Below, piece after piece: positions 42,509 through 55,312 of a stretch of DNA of 64,000 nucleotides. The stretch comes from Cinnamomum chago (taxonomy: Eukaryota; Streptophyta; Magnoliopsida; Laurales; Lauraceae): contig CP142456.1 of the NCBI GenBank assembly GCA_038049695.1, forward strand, positions 68,909,922-68,973,921. The letters are read 5' to 3'. The notes beneath the pieces are model-generated. The model ran no database searches, was not told the origin of the DNA, and was given only the letters and a program-made list of their open reading frames with translations. The position numbers and the translations under genes are program-made. Numbering within the stretch: position 1 is the first letter of the stretch; every line of letters starts with the position of its first letter.

Positions 42509-43360
42509 AATGATCTAAGTAGATTTGGATTGTGTCATGCAACTTGTGTAAGAAAGTGAAGTCTTATGGGGTGGACCAGCCCTTTGGTGAGGGACGTAGA
42601 CACTGGGGATTGGGGATTGGGGTAAGGAAAGGACAGCTGCTTTTGGTGAGGGAGGAAGGTGACTTCATCCGATGGAAAAAAAGGTTTTTAATCATTTCTA
42701 TATTATTTGATTCATATAGGATATTTATTTATTTTTATAGATTTTTTAATTTTCTATTGCCATCGGCAAAAAAAAAAAAAAAAAAAAAGATTTTAATTCT
42801 GCCATGTTTTTTGTTGCATACTTGCATTACATTGCCAGTCCCAAGTCTGGGAAAAAGGAAAAGGGTTGAAAGTCCGGTTCACACCAATGTTTGATGACAG
42901 TAAAAATAATTAGAAAATGTTTTGCTTTTATCTAGAATCGGGCTAAGCCTAGGCCTCTCCCTATCCCAGCCCGGGCCCGTATGGGACAGAATTTGCTTTA
43001 AGCCCGTTCAATTTAGGACGAGGATTAGACAACACTAAAATATGGTAGAACTAAAAAAAAAAAAAAAAAACAGAGGTGATTTCCTCTTCTCAAAGTTTAT
43101 GGCTAAATTATTGAGGAATCATATGTTTGCAATGATAAAAATGTTTCAATGTTGGGTCCTTGAGGATTATATGAAAGAAAAAACACTGCACACAATTTCT
43201 TTATTTATTTATTTATTTATTTTTTCTTAAATTTAAGTTCAAACGCAAAGTTGCCAATCATTTTGTCAATTGTTGATATTAATGTGATAATCTCACAAGA
43301 GTTATAATCTCAAACTTAATTGCCACAAATAATTGTAAACATTTTGCCATGTTTTTTTTT
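42509..43360. other. Intergenic sequence, no gene seen
   Basis: Poly-A tracts at about 42769-42788 and 43055-43070 and a 'TTTA' run at 43200-43222. A 'cccgggcccg' patch near 42968 recalls family-name-type hAT repeats but has no bounds. Confidence 0.5.
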
Positions 43361-43789
43361 TTTAGATAATTAGCGAAAGGTCCCTAGAATTGAATCTATC
43401 CAGTCTCCAGTCCAAACAAATTCTTTTTAAGGGCTCTGGTCCAAGCAGCTAGATTGTTTGCAATCAGAAGTCACTGGATACAATTTACATGACTAATTTG
43501 CCCTCTTTCAACTGTTGAGGCATCTAATTTTGAATTTTAAATTTTCAAATCTTCCATTCTCCCCCTCATTACAAGGGGGGGCACGATTATTGATTGAAGA
43601 AGATCATTGATTTGTGGCAAAGAACGCAGAGGATTACTTGGCTCCTTGCCCCCTTGGCTCCTTGCCGAGGAAGACAACATGAACAGAGAACCCGGACACG
43701 GATTCGCCCAGTGCTGCTCTTGCTGCTAGCCTGCTACGCCGGACTTTGGTCCAGATGACGCGGAGAACGCAAACGATTGTTTCGATTAC

Positions 43790-44127
43790 TGGTCGGAAAG
43801 GTTGGAGACGATTTGGGTCTTGGCACTAATGATGGGGCGGTAGTCCTGGACAACAAGGAGGCTGTAGAGGGTGGTGGAGGCGTTCTGGGCGGAGGCGTCG
43901 TTGAAGGGTTGGTGGAGGATGTGGGAGAGGGCGCCGAGGAGGCCTGGCGTCGCCATAAGGGGCTCGAGATGGAGATGTTGAGGAGGGTGGCGATGGCGTT
44001 CTCTTAGGCTGCCCGAGAGGAGTAGAGGAGGTGGAGGAGAAGGTGGATGGCGCTGGCCTCGGAGATGTAGGCGCGGGAGTCCGGATCGTGCTTAGAGAGG
44101 AGCCGGAGCTCGCAGAGGGCGGAGTCC
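43790..44127 (-). pseudogene. Captured fragment of a plant U-box/ARM-repeat E3 ligase gene
   Basis: On the - strand the frame reads ALCELRLLSKHDPDSRAYI, then ENAIATLLNISIS, then after a frame change LLGALSHILHQPF and YSLLVVQDYRPII. This order matches the ARM region of PUB38/39-type U-box ligases as known from the family. It is broken by an in-frame TAA (44004-44006, between the first two blocks) and a frameshift near 43957-43966. No U-box domain is present. It is much more GC-rich than its surroundings. Confidence 0.7.
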
Positions 44128-44370
44128 AAATCTCGCAGAGTCCGGATCTCACAGAGGCGGAGTCTGGATCTGCTTAGAATCTGAGTTCAACCTTAGTACC
44201 AGAGAGCGAGTCGTGCGTCTCTTCACGTCGCCGGAGCCCTGAGTTGAATGGCCTTTGCGCCATCGTCGTTGCAGGAACGCTTGCGGTTCTTGTTCCGGAA
44301 CAGGAGAACGAGAGGAGGAAGAAGATGACCCAGAGGGACGGTTCCAGTCCGGGTGAGGTCGGGTCAAGTT

Positions 44371-44925
44371 TGACCTGGTTTCAAAGCCCATAAGCAAATC
44401 TATCTGAGTTTTTGAGAAATTTATCTGTGTTTTTGGCAAATATATATGAGTTCCCAACAAATTTAACTGAGTTTTTGGAAAATTTATCTAAGTTTTTAAC
44501 AAATTTATCTGAGTTTCTAACAAATTTATCTTCATTTTGAAAATTTTAACTGAGTTTTTGAATAAGTCTTTCTGTGTGTTAGGCAAATTTATCTAAGTTT
44601 TTGGAAAATCTATCTGAGTTTTTTCGAAAATTTATTTGCGTTTTTTCAAATCTATTTGCATTTTTTAATTTTATTTAGTCTTTCGAAATTTATTTACGTC
44701 TTTTCAAATTTATTTATATTTTTTTAATTTTATTTGGATCTTTTGAAATTTATATGCCTCTTTGAAAATTTATTTACATTTTCTGGAATTTATTTGGATC
44801 TTTTGATTTTTATTTGCGTCTTTCTAAACTATCTATGTTCTTTTGAAATTTATTTGCGTTTTTTAAATTCATTTCATTTTTCGAAATTAATTTGCATTCT
44901 TTTGAAATTTATTTGAAAAACTCAT
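44371..44925. repeat. Degenerate 19-21-bp satellite-like array in element A
   Basis: Many units of 'aatttatctgagtttttg' type grade into 'ttttgaaatttatttgcgtc' type units. The same two-phase array occurs in element B. Confidence 0.85.
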
Positions 44926-45131
44926 TAGTGTAATTTTATTAATCGTGACTAATTTAATGGTAGTTGACCATTATTAATGGCTTATCCTAGTAATCGTGGG
45001 ATATGATTTGAAGAAAGGGTAAATTAGATATTTTAGGTTTTTAAATTTGGAAAAAGGACCTATTATACTATAATAAAAGATTGTGGACCTAAGGTAATAA
45101 AGTGAAATGTTCAGGGACTTGTCGCCGAATC

Positions 45132-45767
45132 CCCTTTTTTTTTTTGGGGGTTAAGTTTGTCAGTTTCTTATTTACTTCTTTTGGAAAGTCTGGTATGTTT
45201 CTTCCAATTCTGTGCCCCAAACACAAGTTTTTCATAGAATTTGGCTTTTGTTTATACACCCAAATGGTGTTGCCATCATTACTTGTGAACCTAATTTTCC
45301 TTGTGCACCTAATTTTCCTTGTGCTTGAAGATTCGTTGCTTGTGCATCCAAACATTTATAGGGAGGTGATCGTGGTGTTTAACATATCATCTCCATATAT
45401 ATTGTCTCCATTGTTTTTTGTGCTTAAATCCTCAAGGGGCATGAAAAGCTTTCACTCATCAAATTGGAGAGCTTGATCCGTATTAACTCAAATCTAAGCT
45501 TTTTAGCCTGTCTCTTGTATGCTGCTGCTTTCTCATAAGGGGTGCAATGTATGAAGAGTCTTAAGGATAGTCAGTTAACATATCTTCCTAGATTCAGAAG
45601 AAGCAATTAGAGCCAAGGAAACAACATCTCTTTCATCATAACATATTAAAGACATGAAATAAAAGTTATCCACAGAGAAGAGAAGCAAGAAACTGGAAAC
45701 AAACACATGATCTTTGCTCGTAGTTTCCATCCAAAGAAAAAGGCCTTATTACTAAATCAAAATATTC
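45132..45767. other. Intergenic sequence downstream of the polygalacturonase gene
   Basis: A 124-codon open frame on the + strand (45102-45476) is low in complexity and has no recognised motif; the right end is probably the 3' untranslated region of the next gene. Confidence 0.45.
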
Positions 45768-48700
45768 TTATACATTTGAGCCATTGAATGTGCACTCCTT
45801 CAATTGCACATCTTCAATAGGCAATCTGTCTGTTGGATATGAACATGGGCTTGCATGTTGGCCTTGATCAACCAATGAAGGACATGGCTGGGGAGTCACT
45901 GAGGTCGACGATCCAGTAACTTCGGTGCAGTTCCATGGCAGCTTCTTAGATGCAAACATTTCCATGGTGACATTGGAGATACATATACCCGTAAATGCGC
46001 CCTTCTCTATTCCCTCCAACTTCCCTGCAATGGTAACATTCTTGGCAACCATATCGCGGTAATTGATATTATTAACAACGGGAATCGCATTCGGATCGAA
46101 ATTATTATCAGCATGTTGTCCATAGTTTCCTGTCATCCAAAAGACATATTTCATGTTGTGCATGGTGAACCCCTTTGCGAATATGTCCTTCACGAATCCT
46201 CCTCTTCCTATGGCTGTTTTGATTCTCACAGCGGACTCGGTGTTAATGGCTGTGATGTCTTCAGCTCGGACATCTTGGATCCCGCCAGACATTTCACTGC
46301 CTAAAGCGATGGTGGCGCTGTAAGGTGAAACACAAGTGAACCTTCTGATGATTACATGCTTGGTAGGCATTCCAAACTTGATACCGTATTCATCCCAACC
46401 GCTCTTTAAGGCGATGCAATCATCGCCGGACACTATGTAAGAATCTTCAATTCGGACATTGGTGCAAGAATCTAAAAGATAGAAAAGAAGTGAATAAATT
46501 GAGAATTCAACCATCGTAATTGAACAGTGTTCAATTTAGTTCTTGTTAGTCCAAAAACACATATAATATGAGGAGTGTTTAAATAAGCTTAACCATGTGT
46601 TGTGGTCAAGTAAGGTTGAAGTAAATTTATACAAGTGGGGTCTACCTTCCATATAATACAAACAATCGAAAGGCGAAGCCCAACTTATTACTTATAGCAT
46701 GCTTGAGCTCTTTTTGAAAGACAACAATATTGACCATCAAATGGAAGAAGAATGCGATTAATATGCTAATTACTGATGACTTTCAAGTTTGTTACGCACG
46801 ATAGAGCCACATTTTAGTTATTCAAATTGTCCACTCGATGCTCAATTTCCTCTTACATTACAAGAAATTTAAGTCTAATCTGAGTTATATTCACAAAATA
46901 TTTGACTAACACAAACTTAGCCATATTTCTTGTATCTGTCTAATCTGATGTTTCAATCTTACTCTATTAACCTTAAATGTGGGATATGTAGCGACAGTAA
47001 GGAGGATTTAACTACAAAGATTTTCTTACCCAACAGTAGTATAAATTATCATACATGTATTTAAATTGGAGTGTTATGTTTTTTTTTCATGACAGAGTCT
47101 TGTTTCTTTGGAATTGCCTATATCCAATTGTATACATGTATGATGCTCCACAATTATGTAACAACATCCATTATGTAATATTCTCAAAATAGCAGCGGCA
47201 GACAAACCTGGATTGATTCCATCAGTGTTTGGGGATGTGACTGGAGCTAAGATTGTAATGCCCTTCACAATAACATTACTGCATTTAGCAAAAACCGATT
47301 AGGATACATAACCAATTTAGTAGTCATAGAAACTGAGATCATTAGTACAACGCAGAGAACATTCTGTTGACATTTGATATGGTTATTATGCTTTAGCAGA
47401 AGTAATAAGGGGGTCTAGAAGTAGAAAGTCTGGTAAAAGATCACAACATACAATATGAGTAGTGCTACTACAGTTTTTTCAAAAAAGATTAGGAAATGAT
47501 AGTTACTTTTGGAGCCTACAATGTCATATGATATATCAACATTCAAATCTACAAATGTATACAAATTGAATATGGTTCTAATAAAATGTTGGATAGTATG
47601 CAGATTGAAATATCGATTAAAGAAATGCTATTAAGATGGTGATCTTTTACAATCAGTGATTTCTTTGTTTTTAGCTGCAACTTCCTTGCATGTTGCATTT
47701 AGTCAATAAGAAGTCTAAGAGTAAAAATTAGAAGGAAAAGAAAGCAAAAAAATGCACAATAAGAAGTACTAATACAAATTAACTTCGAAAAGGCAGAAAG
47801 AACCTGCTATAAGTAGGATGTACATTCCATGAGGGAGAGTTCACCAATGTTATATTGGATATCAGGAGCATATCAGAGTACAAGATTTCAATGAGGTACC
47901 CACGTGAGTGTTTTAGCTCCTTGTTGTGGAATTTATCCCACCACAAAGCGCCTTGGCCATCAATGGTGCCATTGTCCCCTGAAATCCAATGTAGGGCATA
48001 AATGCAACAGTTGACCATGAAAAGTCATAATCTTCAATCCTCATAATAGTTTTTGAAGTAAGTTAAAGCTTAAAAAGAATAATAAATGGATTTATATATT
48101 TGAAAAATGCAATACCTGTTATCACCACATCAGTGAGGTTTGATCCCATAATCAATGAACTATACCTCAAACCAGCATTATCTCTTCCTCTCCCATATGA
48201 AGGCAAGGGATCAATGAGGGGCCATTCATTCATGTCCTACAATAAGAGTATAACTTAATGATACCCGCGATAATTAGGAAATGAAAATGTGAAATTGAGA
48301 ACTTCATTAATGAAAGTTTGGAATGAGAGATTTCCTTCAATGACTTATCAAGCTCAAAATCCAAGGTGGGAATGTACCACCATCCAAAGCCTATGTTTGT
48401 ATGAAGGGAAAACATTTCTACTAGAGAAATTACTTTGGAAATATATGTATGGATGTGTATTATGTGCATACTATATGCAAACATACTAAATATGAATACA
48501 ACATACTACTCTAAAATGCCTCTAATCATTAAGATTTACTCATATGTTAGTCTTGCTATTGAGCAAAATCTTGTGTGGTTATTAACTGTATTATTCAATA
48601 CCACGATGCCACATTTGGGGAGAAAAGGAAACTTTTGGAATATTGCAAATTAAGGCGACAGCCCATTTGATTGCGAGAATCTTTTATAAGAAATTTCATA

Positions 48701-50115
48701 CTATTTAAAGTTATAATCACTTGAAATTACGAAACAATGTTGGATTTAAATGAACAAACCCTCATTTTATAAGTGAGCACCAGTGATGGATTCATTGATC
48801 TCTGTCCACAGGATTTATCAAATTACTGGCATGAGAGGATCACATTAAGAGCTTCTAATAAAAAGGAACCTCACTTGTCACTTTCACAGACTCTTTTTTT
48901 TTTTTTTCCGGATAAGTACACTCTACAATCAACAAATCATCATATTAGGCAATCAAAATTCATTTCCACAAACATTTGATGCCTTAAAGATATAGCAATA
49001 TCACCATGATATTTAGTTAGAATGATTTTTTTTATCATAGATATATTTCAAAATATCGCAAGAAGATCACAATATAAAAGTACTGTCTCAATAATCATCA
49101 TTGTTTCTTATTAACATTTCCTCACATTGCAAGATTGATAAAGTCATACTTCTATATAGAGGATCCCTCACAGTAGGGTGAGAGACACTTACATAATTGG
49201 AAATATTCAAGTGTAAAAGAGGAAAAGCCATATATGGTCATATGCAGAAAAAAAATGTTTATGTGCAAAGAGGGAAAGCCATGTAAGTGTCCCTCACCCT
49301 ATGGTGAAAGATGGATGCACATGAATGCCCCCCTATATAAAAGTATCATAATTTGGTTCCACAAGTTTTTTCAAATAGTTGCCCATCCAACTAAGTGGAC
49401 CTCATTGTTTGGTTGACACCAACCCTTTCCTCACGGTCAGCTTCAAGGAATTTCATTGTGAAACAATTGAATGAGAAACATAACATGCTATAGGAGGCAA
49501 CATTAAAGATTTGCATAGAAATGGACAATCATATAAGAGGCCATTAAAGGAGACAACTTATTAGTTAATGTTAATTCATTCATGCGGGTCACTAATTAGA
49601 TAACAAGTCATTTGAATAAAAGACAGACAAAATATCCCTCCAAAGCGATAGATTTTAAACAATTTTATGAGACAATAATTTCTCCGTGTAGGTATTTGTG
49701 ACAATGAATTGAGTTACTCCCCCAAAAGAATCAATACCCCAAGTGTATGAAACAAAAAATATCTCATTCAAAATGCTCTAAAATCAAAGACATGAAGAAA
49801 GAAACACACCTGAGAGCCCAAAATAACAGCATCCTTATGGAGGAAGATGGTGAGGGAACTGGTTAGATTAAAGCTGCCAGTGACCCATCTACCTGGGGGA
49901 ACATAGAGCAGTCCTCCACCCATGTGTTGGTACTGGCTCAAATTGGAGATTGCTGTTGCAAATGCCTTGGTGTTGGATGTTACACCATCTCCAATACCTC
50001 CAAAATCTGTCAATGATACGCTGTGGGCTCTGCAGTTGGTTGACTGATAATTGAAAGATCCTGAAGCAGGGTAGAATCGACATTCCCCACTTCTTAAGAT
50101 CAGAAATCCCAACAT
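45768..50115 (-). CDS. GH28 polygalacturonase-like cell-wall enzyme, five exons
   Basis: Secreted pectin-acting enzyme of glycoside hydrolase family 28. Exons in coding order: 50115-49810, 48236-48116, 47978-47804, 47278-47208, 46471-45768; all GT-AG, 1377 nt, 458 residues. The mature part starts with the conserved SVSLTDFGGIGDG. Catalytic motifs: SPNTDGINP at 216-224 (Asp220), SGDDCIA at about 239-245 (Asp241, Asp242), and RIKTA further on. The third Asp-bearing pair is intact, but the usual G-H-G motif is replaced by SATIALGSEMSGG, as in a large plant clade related to Arabidopsis At3g16850/At4g23500. LWWDKF and NITLVNSPSWNVHP are further family hallmarks. Oddity: the first in-frame ATG leaves a very short hydrophobic leader (MLGFLIL); the frame stays open upstream to a TGA near 50199 without another ATG, so the signal-peptide exon may be misjudged. 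Substrate cannot be set from sequence. Intron 1 holds an M2 MITE. Confidence 0.92.
49156..49335. mobile_element. MITE family M2, copy 2
   Basis: CCCTCACAGTAGGGTGAGAG on the left and CCCTCACCCTATGGTGAAAG on the right, with 'gatgcacatgaatg' before the right TA end; the left end is partly deleted. It lies in intron 1 of the polygalacturonase gene. Confidence 0.75.
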
Positions 50116-50330
50116 AAGCAGACAAAGTCTTTGAAGAGGCTGTGAATTGAGGGAGAGAGAAAGAGTATGAGCAACAGTAGGGGACAGGTGGAAGTTTCAA
50201 AAGATAACTGACAAGAGGATGAAAGGATGTGTGTGTTTTTTTCTCTCTCTAAGAAAGAGGGGTTTTTCAAGGAAAGGGGCTCTTTTTTTTTTTTTTTTTT
50301 TCCTTTTTTCTAAAGAGGATATTGGACTGG
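50116..50330 (-). promoter_or_regulatory. Upstream region of the polygalacturonase gene
   Basis: CT-rich on the gene strand (GA-rich at 50150-50165 on +) with a long T run at 50284-50302 on +. No clear TATA box was placed. Confidence 0.35.
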
Positions 50331-50755
50331 GCCGGGTTGATGAATGTCGAACCCTGGTCCGACTTCTAGTCTGTAAGCTTCAGCCCGGCCCAAGCCTGCA
50401 TAGAGCCAGAACTGGCTGGCCCAAGCTCATCTCATCCGGAAACGATAAAGCCCAAGCCCAGCATGAGTCAGAGTTATAGAATAATAATAAGAAAAACATT
50501 ATCACCTTTTTGAGAGGTCATGTGTTTGATTCCCCCATTACCATTCCCTTATAATTATTTTTGTATTTGAATCGGGCCGGGCTTCAGCTCTCTACCACTA
50601 AGCCCACCTCGGTTTATCTATCAAATGGGCCAAATAAAAAAGCTCGAGCCCGACTTATCTACTAGAACGTAGGCTCCAAGCTCGTACCAAAATTGGTTGG
50701 GCCCAGGCCGGGTTCGTGCAGGCCCTGCAGGCCCGATCCATGAACACACCTAATC
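50330..50755. repeat. GGCCCGGGC-rich dispersed repeat, probable hAT-type MITE remnant
   Basis: Permuted 'gcccgagcc', 'gggccgggc', 'agcccaagccc' motifs on both strands, ending 'ccatgaacacaccta', the complement of a TAGGTGTGTTCATGG type terminus. The left terminus is not recognised. Confidence 0.5.
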
Positions 50756-52703
50756 CTCTTGTACATGAATGGCCCTCCAGCACATACACCAGGTAAATAT
50801 GGGGGTTATCTAACATAGGGCGTGCGGAGCAGACCCACACCTTATACAAACGAATCAATTACATCGAGGTGGAAGGAAATGACTCGTGATTTTTTTATTT
50901 TTTTTGGAATGGTATAATCAAGTTTTTTTAAGTGTAACAAAGTCAAGGAGATTTTGGAGGAATTTTTAAGATCAGGTTGTTTTTCTAAACTAACGCAATC
51001 TCATGGGTCTTTTAGAACAATCTCTACCAAAATCAGATAAAACATCTCCAACATCCTTATTAGAAGAAGAATTTAGGAAAAAGGAGATGTTTATGTATAG
51101 AGAAGGTAACAAACATGCATGAACCTTTTCTTTTTTCCATTAGATAAGATAGGAATGGCCCATTTCTATAAAGAATAAATTCCAACGCAAAGAACTTGGA
51201 GAACAAATTTTCAAAAGTCGGCTATTTTCAAAGATAGAAATAAGTTCAGATAGGAAAAACTAAACCCCAAGAGTTAAAATTTCAAAATTTAGGAAGCTCA
51301 GAAGACACACTTTGGCAAGCAAATAAAAAAATTGAATCGTTTGCCAACACACTCATGATTGAATGGTGTTGGCACCTGGTATCACATACATGCTTAGGAA
51401 TCGATACCGAGCTTCAAATTTGAAGTATCACTCCTCGCCAATTGGCCACTCTAGCTAAAATAAAATAAAAATAAAAAAACCGATCTTTTCTAATCGAAAG
51501 AAACTACCTTCCAAAAAAGAAAAAAAAAGAAAAGGTAAAATCTCCTTTTTTTTCTTCTTAATTTTGTTGAACAAGAAGAGACACAGAGGAGCAATGTATC
51601 AAAAGACACAACCAAGATACTACATCCAAATATCAGTTTCTTTCCTCCATGAAAAGCATCAAGACACATCACTAAACGCATAGAACTCTCCCCCTTCTAC
51701 CAAAGGAGGAGAGAGATGAAAGTATACGATGAACAACAGCGAAAGAAAAAACCCATATACCAATTTTCAGTAATCATTTTATTTCTAAGTTGGGCTACTA
51801 GTCAAAAGTGATACTTTAAACTTGAAAACCCATTGATTGATCTTTAGACATGTGTGTGATATTACAATGATAACAACCCTCAACCATGAGGGTATTGGCA
51901 TAAAAAATCAGTCATAAAAACGAAAACAAAGAAAAATAACCAGCTTTCCATCCATTCAAAAGCTCATTTCTTTTTCTCACTATAAAGACTAAACAAAACA
52001 TATATGCAGCATTACTTGAGACTTTCTCTCTGATGTCTGCAACTCCATTGTTGGGATTTTTTGCAGAAGCTCTGCTCCCATTGGTACTTATAATAAAACT
52101 TTAGAAGAAGAGATAAGGGAACATTTATAGATATAGGAGGTATCCATATGCGTTATAGTAATAATCTCTTCATTGTTGGTTTTATCTAAAAATGGTCGAA
52201 ATCTTTTAGGAGGGATTTTTTTTTCCAATTCAGCTGGTTTATGAATTTATGTGGGATTCATCCTTGTGTTTACTCACCTATTTTTAGTTTTGGAAGGTAG
52301 AAACAAGGGCTTTGTAAAAGAGTAACGTATCTCCTAAATCTCGAGAGTTAAATTGCTCCTTCTTCCATGTTCAAAATATCCACGGCGCGCCCATGTATTT
52401 AAATTCTAGGGGTTGCAATGGATCTGATCAGGTTGAGCACTGTGGGAAGAATGCATAGGCTAAATATAATGATGAATCATTTATTTAAGGATTGAAAATG
52501 TCAACCCGAGCCTAACTTAGACCCGATGTTAAAATGATTATAAGTTCAAATTGAATTGCAAATTATAGTGCAATTGGTTGGGTGGAGGTTGGATAGCAAA
52601 ACTCTGAGCAGGACCAATCTATTTATTAGTTGGGTTAGAAATGTGGAACCTAACACAAGTAGGAGAATGGTCTCCCGCACCCCAGGAGATTTTAGATTTT
52701 AAA
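50756..52703. other. Intergenic sequence with a SINE fragment, no gene seen
   Basis: AT-rich sequence with only short open frames. A tRNA-like SINE head lies at about 51343-51430. Confidence 0.5.
51343..51430 (+). mobile_element. tRNA-derived SINE head fragment
   Basis: 'ccaacacactcatgattgaa' followed by TGGTGTTGGCAC and a degraded B-box region 'ggaatcgataccgag' match, in opposite orientation, the fragment at 11089-11175. Confidence 0.5.
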
Positions 52704-53097
52704 AAAAATTAGCGAAAGGTCCCTCATAGAGATCTTGTAAGGCCTCCAGTCCATCAACTTTTCCTCTAAGGCCTGCAGTCCATGCAGCTGGACATATTTC
52801 AGCGAGAGGTCCCTAGATACGCTACCTCATAAATCTTCATGACTGATTAGCTCTTTCAACTAATTAGGCATAAAATTTTAAATTTTAAATTTTAAAATAT
52901 TCCATTCTCCATCTTCTTCTTCTTCAATCCGGTTTTGTGCTGCCCTCGCTATTAGGCTGGAGAACGAGACGCATACATCGCTGCCAGTCCTAACGCTGGA
53001 TAGTGTGACACTATCCATTGGTGCCTCTTGGCTACTTTAACATAGCTGAAATCGTTCCAGCCCTTTGGTCTTTCCCTAGCGACACTTGCCATCCTAA

Positions 53098-53475
53098 TTG
53101 ATGAATCGATTCGACCTGAAGGGGGAGTTGGCCATTTGTCCAAGAGGTGCTCATCCCTATTCAGGTAGATCAGTTGGTGAGGTAGCGAGACAATTCTATG
53201 AATTAACAGAAATTCTCCTCCTCAAGGAAAATCTTATGTGGAGGCGGATTAGGTTTTGTTACAGAACCCAATTGAAGAAGACGAGCAGTGAAGAGATTGG
53301 GTTACGCCTGGAATTTACAAAGGATTCCGAAGCGGTCGCAATCGTAGAATATGAGCCCTGCTGCATCAATATTCAGACCAGAGGATTCCGGACCCAGGTT
53401 CGTCCATTGATCAAAGAAGTTGCAGAGAACGGGGCTGATGAGTTTTTCGTCGCAGTCGGTTTCCAGAGAGTATAG
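53098..53475 (+). other. Unidentified open segment inside element B
   Basis: 125 codons open from ATG at 53098 with normal amino-acid variety, including GLRLEFTKDSEAVAIVEYE and ADEFFVAVGF. I do not recognise a family. By position it corresponds to the U-box fragment in element A, so it may be another captured gene piece, or an element-derived sequence. Confidence 0.35.
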
Positions 53476-53764
53476 TAGTCTCTAGGATCGGTTTGGATCT
53501 TGCAGTCGCAAGAGGATTGGACCTGTCCGTTGGATTTATTCTCTAATTTCTCTCAACCACAGAGAGAGGTTTGAAGTGGAACCGGAGAACAAAAAGATAG
53601 CGAGGTAAAGATCCGGACTCTGCGCTGATCGAAGTGGAGAAAAAGAAGATGAGCTTTGTTTGTGGACGTAGGTATGAAATCATCGAACACGTAAATCCGT
53701 GTTCTTTTTGTGTGGCTTTGATTTGTTTGCTTGTTGATTGCATGCTTTCGCACACACAATCACA

Positions 53765-54660
53765 ACAAATTGGTATCTCTATCAAATTTATCTAAGTTTC
53801 TAATTTTTTGTCAAATGTATTTGATTTCTTCGCAAATTTATCTGAGTTCTATAACAAATCTCTCTAAGTTCTATATAAATCTATCTGGGTTTTTCATTTT
53901 TTGTCAAATTTATCTGATTTCTAAACAAATTTCTCTTAGTTCTGAACAAATCTATCTGAGTTTTTGGCTAGTTTATCAAAGTTTCTGAACAAATTTATCT
54001 GAGTTCTAAACAAATCTCACTGAGTTTTTGGAAAATTTTTCTGAAATTTGGAAAATTGGTTTATCTTAGTTTTGGCAATTGTATTTGTGTTTTTTAAATT
54101 TATTTACGTTTTTTAATTTTATTTACGTCTTTTGAAATTTATTTGCGTCTTTTGAAATTTATTTACATTTTTTTAAATTTATTTGGATCTTTTGAAATTT
54201 ATTTTCATCTTTTAAAATTTATTTAAATATTTTTTAAATTTAATTGAATCTTTTGACATTTATTTGCGTCTTTTTAAATTGATTTTCATCTTTTGAAATT
54301 TATTTATATTTTTTAATTTTTATTTGGATCTTTTGAAATTTATTTGCGTCTTTTTAAATTTCTTTGCATTATTTTGAAATGATTGCTTTTTTGAAATTTA
54401 TTTCGAATTTATTTGTATTTTTCAAATTTATTTGTGTTTTTTAATTTTATTTACGTATTTTGAAATTTATTTTCGTCTATTGGAGTTTATTTACAGTTTT
54501 TGAAATTTATTTGAATCTTTTGAAATTTATTTGCGTCTTTTTAAATTTATTGTTTTTTTTAATTTATTGTGTTTGTTGAAATTATTGCGTTTTTTGAATT
54601 TTATTTGCGTTATTTTTAAATTTATTTATCTTTTTTTAGAATTTATTTGAAAAATCTCGT
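53765..54660. repeat. Degenerate 19-21-bp satellite-like array in element B
   Basis: Starts with 'aaatttatctgagttctaa' type units and shifts near 54070 to 'ttttgaaatttatttgcgtc' type units, the same order as in element A but longer. Confidence 0.85.
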
Positions 54661-54868
54661 TAATGAGATTCCATTGAACGTGGCCAATTAAATGGTAGTT
54701 GACTATTATTAATGAAATATCCCACCAATTATGGGATCTTATTTAAAGAAAGGGTAAATTAGACATGTCAGGTATGAGAATCTATTAGAGGACCTTTGGC
54801 TGCATGACTTGTTTTTGTGGACCGTTTGCAACAAAGTCATACTTTGAGGGACCTCCGACCAAACGCCC

Positions 54869-55278
54869 CTATATTTTATATGTGAGCTTCAATGATTGAA
54901 AAGATTAGTACTATATTGTGCACCATTATATTTACCAAGTGTAAATAACTAATGTAAGAAAATTGTATTCCGTTTCAAATTGTATTCCATTTCTTCTTCA
55001 ACAAACATGTAATTACCACTGGCCTCTAAATTTGAATTTTTTGCAAAATTGCAAGATGAGGGTATCCCAAATCTGCTACTTGGAGATGGACGTGTGGGTA
55101 ACTCCCTTCTAATCTAACACAATAAAAGAAATTATTAGATTTCCATTTATGATTTATTAAGTAAATGGCCTCCACAATATGTTCATATTTATTAAGTAAA
55201 TTATTAGATTTCCATTTATGATTTATTAAGTAATAGTTTCCTTTTGGGATATCTCTATTCCAAAAGATGCTTTTAGGT
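54869..55278. other. AT-rich sequence, nothing recognised
   Basis: A 30-40 bp block 'aaattattagatttccatttatgatttattaagtaa' is present twice (about 55129-55161 and 55199-55232). Confidence 0.6.

Positions 55279-55312
<34 letters not shown>
55279..55312. repeat. 34-base poly-G homopolymer
   Basis: Thirty-four consecutive G on the + strand. Such long G runs are rare in plant DNA and hard to sequence, so its true length is uncertain. Confidence 0.9.

Follow-up and report, generated by a model that had tools for sequence, protein, structure and literature searches.

Mutator-like elements (MULEs) are marked by a 9-bp target duplication and G...C ends. Among them, the nonautonomous Pack-MULEs of rice, maize, tomato and Arabidopsis carry host gene fragments between their ends, with the parental gene elsewhere, and they have the 9-bp duplication in common with the family described here. 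Two of its members, A and B, flank a polygalacturonase gene in a 64,000-nt stretch of the Cinnamomum chago genome (assembly GCA_038049695.1, contig CP142456.1, positions 68,909,922 to 68,973,921, forward strand; hereafter, the window). We conclude, with a probability of roughly 0.93, that A and B are Pack-MULEs, nonautonomous and Mutator-like, from two subfamilies of one family, combining a fixed shell with interiors most likely built stepwise. Pack-CACTA elements and helitrons also capture gene fragments and reuse them in chimeras, as this family does, but its target duplication length and its ends fit neither of them.

GC-biased capture is described for Pack-MULEs in excerpts of PMC4858842, and GC-richer interiors are found in these elements and in the present family alike. 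How Pack-MULEs acquire gene pieces was, in the passages available from a 2012 paper (PMC3310237), yet to be understood, and a 2026 review allows, again in excerpt, for an undiscovered mechanism (PMC13317346). Unlike Pack-MULEs with long terminal inverted repeats (TIRs), the present family has short, degenerate ends, together with nested layers and, in every copy checked, a one-sided T-rich array of 21- and 20-bp units. Poor TIRs and noncoding tandem repeats are also found in the VANDAL (non-TIR) MULEs of Arabidopsis (excerpts of PMC5735166 and PMC13317346), whose repeats are bound by an anti-silencing protein (PMC5735166, in part); by analogy, VANDAL/VANC may offer the best functional precedent for the array. 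However, unlike VANDAL elements, copies of the present family carry host gene fragments, the VANC21 motif quoted in the same excerpts (YAGTATTAY) differs from the array unit, and a search of the present genome for DUF1985 (VANC), run with no positive control, gave 0 matches. Tomato MULEs with multiple tandem TIRs (PM-ZIBP) are likewise Pack-MULEs with repeated terminal material, although there, according to the parts of PMC3310237 at hand, whole long TIRs are duplicated, mostly at both ends, as compared with a one-sided 20/21-bp minisatellite here.

Element A extends over 43363/4-45134 of the window and comprises the following parts (C1-C14 denote contigs of the genome, and L-numbers the genome regions or copies analysed).

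43354..43362, no strand: left target duplication of A (poly-T); a T-run lies on both sides of A, weak and of low complexity
43363..43574, + strand: left terminal and subterminal shell, with the family left end GAGATAATTAGCGAAAGGTCCCT; 29 of 40 scored genome places stop at about base 211-219
43575..43727, + strand: second layer, shared by a subset of copies (A, L022, L030, L038, L031-L035, L040)
43804..44229, - strand: cargo, copied in antisense from the 5' part of a gene with ARM repeats (ARM_PUB), L062:1593-2492(-), with identity at 351 of 389 ungapped positions
44230..44392, + strand: right inner shell, from ARM remnant to array; kept wholly or for the most part by the 18 copies that have such a remnant
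44395..44915, + strand: T-rich array, 21-bp then 20-bp units
44916..45134, + strand: right tail, terminating in ...CGCCGAATCCCC; present in 19 of 20 fetched genome regions (only in part in L041)
45135..45143, no strand: right target duplication of A (poly-T), from the T-run on both sides of A

In A the first G of GAGATAATTAGCGAAAGGTCCCT is replaced by T, and its left shell is common to copies up to about ...CTCATTAC. Element B, at about 52702-54869, repeats the same plan: the left segments are 71% alike over 209 bp, the tails 80% over 134 bp, and the arrays 67-76% in alignments. The left end AAATTAGCGAAAGGTCCCT, with three or fewer mismatches, occurs twice in the window, against a mean of 0.02 over 100 shuffles. 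A preliminary description of the window had placed both elements correctly to within about 5 bp; the left end, array and tail that it saw in the same order and orientation are borne out by our alignments, and the 'ccagtcc' words it reported in the spacer can be seen directly in A and B.

The genome searched has 1.06 Gb in 14 contigs, 12 of them of chromosome size. Using the left 241 bp of A as query, we scored the best 40 of 1754 first-look candidates, which were spread over all 12 chromosomes; 39 began at query base 1-5 (the other at base 13) and 29 ended at base 211-219, indicating a sharp left border with about 210 conserved bp behind it. Across the genome the 23-bp end GAGATAATTAGCGAAAGGTCCCT has 473 exact occurrences (254 forward, 219 reverse), and its reversed control has 0. 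Twenty genome regions of 7.5 kb were fetched: the right tail was present in 19, broken off early in L041, and missing from L049, while L032 (partial, 76%) and L043 contained a second left end. B belongs to a separate subfamily: the 39 other places that score best with its own left end are 84-91% like it, versus 71% for the left end of A; 38 of these 39 start at query base 6-9 (52705-52708).

Target duplications were evaluated in the 21 copies that have both ends, namely A, B and 19 from the genome (L041 and L049 dropped), by comparing the 9-mers outside the ends, allowing shifts of 1-2 bases. All nine positions agreed in 18 copies, eight in two and seven in B (mean 8.8), as compared with a mean of 5.5 in control pairings of ends from different copies (n=420), of which 13 reached the full nine. 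The 9-bp duplication and the G...C ends are the basis for assigning the family to the Mutator-like elements. Three copies on C5 (L034, L035 and L040, 15.85-16.02 Mb) have the same target duplication and flank and lie about 80-90 kb apart, probably through a tandem segmental duplication. Two other classes of gene-capturing elements were rejected: a helitron, because target duplications are present and the right end is CGAATCCCCC, versus no duplication and a 3' CTRR end with a hairpin; and Pack-CACTA, because the ends and the duplication length differ from CACTA ends and their 3-bp target duplication.

The interior of A was traced with the segment 43640-44400, scoring the best 40 of 327 candidate places (44 matches). 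These were largely family copies, but C11:50734590-50734988 matched the inner part of A alone. This locus contains an intact 299-aa open frame with an ARM_PUB domain (PF25598, E=7e-19), and there was no further match to A within the 5 kb read around the frame. A's ARM fragment thus has a parent gene on another chromosome, the C11 frame, around which no element was found. Of the U-box/ARM fragment announced in the preliminary description, the ARM part stands (351/389 positions identical to the C11 gene); the 299-aa frame has no U-box, although exons upstream of it were not sought. At a distance of 1.4 Mb, a further element (L061), with a left end about 80% like A's, carries a longer piece of the same gene, which begins at the same gene base as A's (591) but extends to 1205. 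Within L061 the ARM fragment is interrupted, with an overlap of 5 bases, by about 1.7 kb (L061:1103-2845, reverse complement) that is probably a nested transposon.

Other copies contain other genes. Four of 10 interior frames, from nine copies, matched Pfam host families, namely ZIP (E=3e-33), ubiquitin repeats (1e-72), DUF7138 (9e-8) and DUF2828 (9e-25), and six matched none; in A's and B's own interior frames, the Pfam scan gave no family above cut-off. The search for host-gene parents covered A's ARM fragment. L024, L039 and L047 have ubiquitin repeats (by Pfam in L024, by eye in the other two) beside an ARM remnant, making them chimeras of two fragments of genes from the ubiquitin field. 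The hundreds of left ends, the sharp termini and the 9-bp target duplications, together with the varied interiors and an ARM parent elsewhere, uphold the earlier Pack-type (gene-fragment-capturing) reading, which can now be made more precise as a Pack-MULE family with short, degenerate TIRs, except for its suggestion of duplication or deletion of the enclosed gene.

To describe the interiors we painted 32 copies with the shells of A and the ARM gene. Besides A and B, the set has 30 copies, taken from the 29 other places that best match the left end of A, one region yielding two copies. Having been chosen by likeness to that left end, the set is biased to A-like copies. The left-shell match reaches 347-365 in 10 copies (A, L022, L030, L038, L031-L035, L040) and 200-216 in the other 22. 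An ARM remnant is kept in 18 copies and missing from the other 14; its right edge lies at gene base 985-989 in 18/18, and its left edge at 591 (four copies), 824 (three), 849 (one), 901 (three), 922 (one), 925 (one) or 935 (five). In several copies short extra stretches interrupt the remnant, and small parts of the right inner shell (44230..44392) occur in some copies lacking it. Cargo such as ZIP or polyubiquitin sits between the left shell and the ARM remnant. The share of other copies with similar sequence, by tenths from left end to array, is 0.99, 0.89, 0.29, 0.14, 0.11, 0.11, 0.12, 0.16, 0.31 and 0.39 (31 copies, the composite L031 left out). Interiors are thus layered, with common outer parts and a private centre. 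A single fixed left capture point looked true across classes, with junctions at about 213, but was rejected on finding further junctions at about 288 and 365 within some classes; capture therefore seems to occur mid-element instead of from one side.

The simplest reading is that the ARM gene was captured once, long ago, and that the core was replaced in later captures. In the mechanism that we propose, a transposase provided in trans would cleave the element at its short inverted ends, and insertion at AT-rich sites would create the 9-bp duplication, in keeping with the ends and duplications observed. In each element a fixed shell (the left segment of about 210 bp, the T-rich array on the right and the right tail) encloses a changing, GC-richer interior of copied host DNA. 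After excision, the gap would be refilled from both ends on the sister template; if this copying were interrupted, DNA from elsewhere could serve as filler in the middle, so that each new capture would spare the outer layers and replace the core. From the layered sharing, such a stepwise build-up is most likely. The family has hundreds of left ends in this genome, and 18 of the 32 copies show what is apparently one ARM-gene capture with a fixed edge and stepwise shortening, so that the order of captures may be readable from sequence alone.

The main rival, which we hold to be unlikely but deserving of weight, is that recombination or gene conversion between resident elements, and not repeated capture by gap repair, formed the layers, so that the copies are hybrids. 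B-type left ends and B cargo lie apart among the places listed, some interior pieces recur at different positions between classes (for example, L032 367-461 and L026 577-671), and hybrid formation is described for Pack-type elements in the portions consulted of PMC13317346. Nevertheless, the host-gene pieces are central, with common layers on both sides; the ARM remnant shrinks from one side, its opposite edge being fixed in all 18 copies that have it; and a simple crossover would leave a single breakpoint rather than shared flanks on both sides of a private core. That A and B are not mobile but the common ends of a segmental duplication has a negligible probability and was rejected, because, in spite of the common flanks of the three C5 copies, the other copies have sharp ends, different flanks and 9-bp duplications, and there are 473 exact left ends, with scored places on all 12 chromosomes.

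Several observations weigh against a family of Pack-MULEs with interiors built stepwise. The target duplications of A, L031, L037 and L044 are of low complexity, and L034, L035 and L040, having one common flank, count as one insertion. The TIR is short and imperfect, its 13-bp core GCGAnAGGTCCCT recurring inverted at the other end with 11/13 positions in A and 12/13 in L045, and whole-end alignments exceeded all 200 shuffles in just one of five copies tested. As the ARM piece of L061 runs to gene base 1205, the 985-989 edge is not universal. Sharing does not rise near the array in B, L023, L027, L041, L043b and L048, and in the DUF7138 group the rise is slight or absent. The 32 copies are related by descent, so that the layering does not amount to 18 independent events, and some layer steps could be deletion instead of replacement. 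Finally, no transposase gene was found inside the ends of the family, and only one of the 150 scored MULE-domain matches in the genome comes within 25 kb of any of the left ends scored (80 in all).

The MULE transposase domain was absent from five frames of A, five of B and 10 from nine other copies; having no transposase inside, A, B and the scanned copies are nonautonomous. Genome searches with the MULE domain (best 150 of 3015 first-look candidates scored) and with DBD_Tnp_Mut (best 150 of 1395) showed MULE domains to be abundant. The 29 MULE-domain matches on C1 and C2 all lie at least 59 kb away from the 100 exact left ends listed, of the 473. The single close match is 10.7 kb from a B-type left end and lies beyond the copy in question, which was read at its array and tail and is closed by them after about 1.7 kb; this proximity is probably due to chance. 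L034, a complete 1.8-kb copy, has its left end about 14 kb away from a DBD_Tnp_Mut match noted by eye at C5:15924984. Many chromosomes bear MULE transposase matches with identical scores and open frames of 714 or 754 aa, which suggest recently active MULE families.

The array was evaluated in 18 copies (17 A-type and B), leaving out L031, L035, L040 and L041 from 22 whole copies. In all 18, the repeat period is 21 bp or multiples of it in the first half and 20 bp or near multiples in the second, with a best self-match of 0.51-0.70 versus 0.38-0.42 for one shuffle each; in one more B-type copy we saw the 20-bp part of the array and the tail. The unit corresponds to about two helical turns with A/T tracts, a composition that suggests bent DNA. 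Most likely, the array serves as a structural or protein-binding platform that belongs to the shell and is not cargo; its place in the shell follows from its constancy in the copies checked, and its function is what we infer. As a constant feature, it is a testable cis element. It could instead be a passive minisatellite without any role, produced by replication slippage, and we give this somewhat less than an even chance: tandem arrays grow easily and the self-match at the repeat period, about 50-70%, is like that of decaying repeats, but the same two-phase order is kept on the same side in 18/18 copies although other shell parts of A and B differ by 20-29%. More doubtful, and drawn by analogy with the VANC-bound repeats of Arabidopsis VANDAL MULEs, is that an anti-silencing factor specific to the family might act on the array in trans. 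In VANDAL elements the VANC targets are often noncoding tandem repeats, as excerpts of PMC5735166 indicate, and the present elements are likewise MULEs with noncoding tandem arrays; against it stands the lack of DUF1985 matches in the genome, within the limit of that search noted above. Still less probable is a broader, speculative proposal that the 21/20-bp array is a selected binding platform for a family-specific factor keeping the element open to transposase or demethylated, and that this openness leads to interrupted gap repair, the nested interiors being a readable record of captures that includes probable mitochondrial DNA. Gene-capturing MULEs with such arrays were not described in the titles and abstract openings covered, a scope outside which most subscription journals fall. 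The constant two-phase array and the layered capture record make this family a distinctive variant of an ordinary kind, the Pack-MULE.

Element B has the following parts.

52693..52701, no strand: left target duplication of B, TAGATTTTA; 8/9 versus the right copy by eye, 7/9 by the scripted rule
52702..52908, + strand: left terminal and subterminal shell; shared at 84-91% with 39 further places in the genome
52940..53790, + strand: cargo region with no Pfam family; all or most of it matched at 12 other places, 84-88%
53043..53253, + strand: piece of the cargo matching contig C13; identity in 197 of 230 columns of the alignment, gaps included
53776..54649, + strand: T-rich array, 21-bp then 20-bp units
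54650..54869, + strand: right tail; 80% like the A tail over 134 bp and 89% like that of a second B-type copy
54870..54878, no strand: right target duplication of B, TATATTTTA, read by eye

The interior of B had no match in the 31 other copies compared, A included, in agreement with the earlier remark that one shell holds different interiors. Elsewhere in the genome, among the best 40 of 217 candidate places scored, its cargo was found at 12 near-full places (84-88%) and three partial ones, and 23 more share only about 140 bp. Shell and cargo vary separately: these 15 other B-cargo places all lie 138 kb or more from the 39 B-type left ends that score best besides that of B, so that these left ends carry other interiors; the comparison takes the best-scored places on both lists, and the shells of the B-cargo places are unread.

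The piece at 53043-53253 matches C13:66597-66826 (L063) over about 210 bp at 86%, and a comparison of the piece with Rfam and a plasmid search with it yielded nothing informative. C13 is a contig of 707,525 bp. C14 (152,753 bp) contains two psbA 3' UTR families, one tRNA and a 353-aa frame, which we take to be psbA, and is the plastid genome; C13 is then probably the mitochondrial genome. Organelle DNA, directly or via a nuclear copy, may have entered the transposon family through the interior of B.

The gene enclosed by the two elements was described beforehand as a polygalacturonase, and Pfam agrees, identifying a GH28 gene of several exons on the minus strand.

45768..50196, - strand: GH28 polygalacturonase gene; GH28 exons 45768-46535 and 47779-48024, first exon region 49768-50196

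It matched PF00295 twice, with E=6.9e-16 and E=1e-4, the latter (22.0 bits) slightly below the Pfam cut-off of 22.9, and PF12708 with E=3.2e-6. The idea that A and B, as direct repeats, could promote duplication or deletion of this gene found no support: their ends are 71-80% alike, they are seemingly separate insertions and no trace of recombination was seen. With 71% identity on the left and 80% in the tail they would be too different, and also too short, to recombine readily in an unequal exchange, so that recombination between A and B seems unlikely, and we rejected it as a hazard to the gene by reasoning from these identities. Their target duplications, poly-T in A versus TAGATTTTA in B, make them look like separate insertions. 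Beyond B, a run of 34 G at 55279-55312 of the window is possibly an assembly or sequencing artefact.

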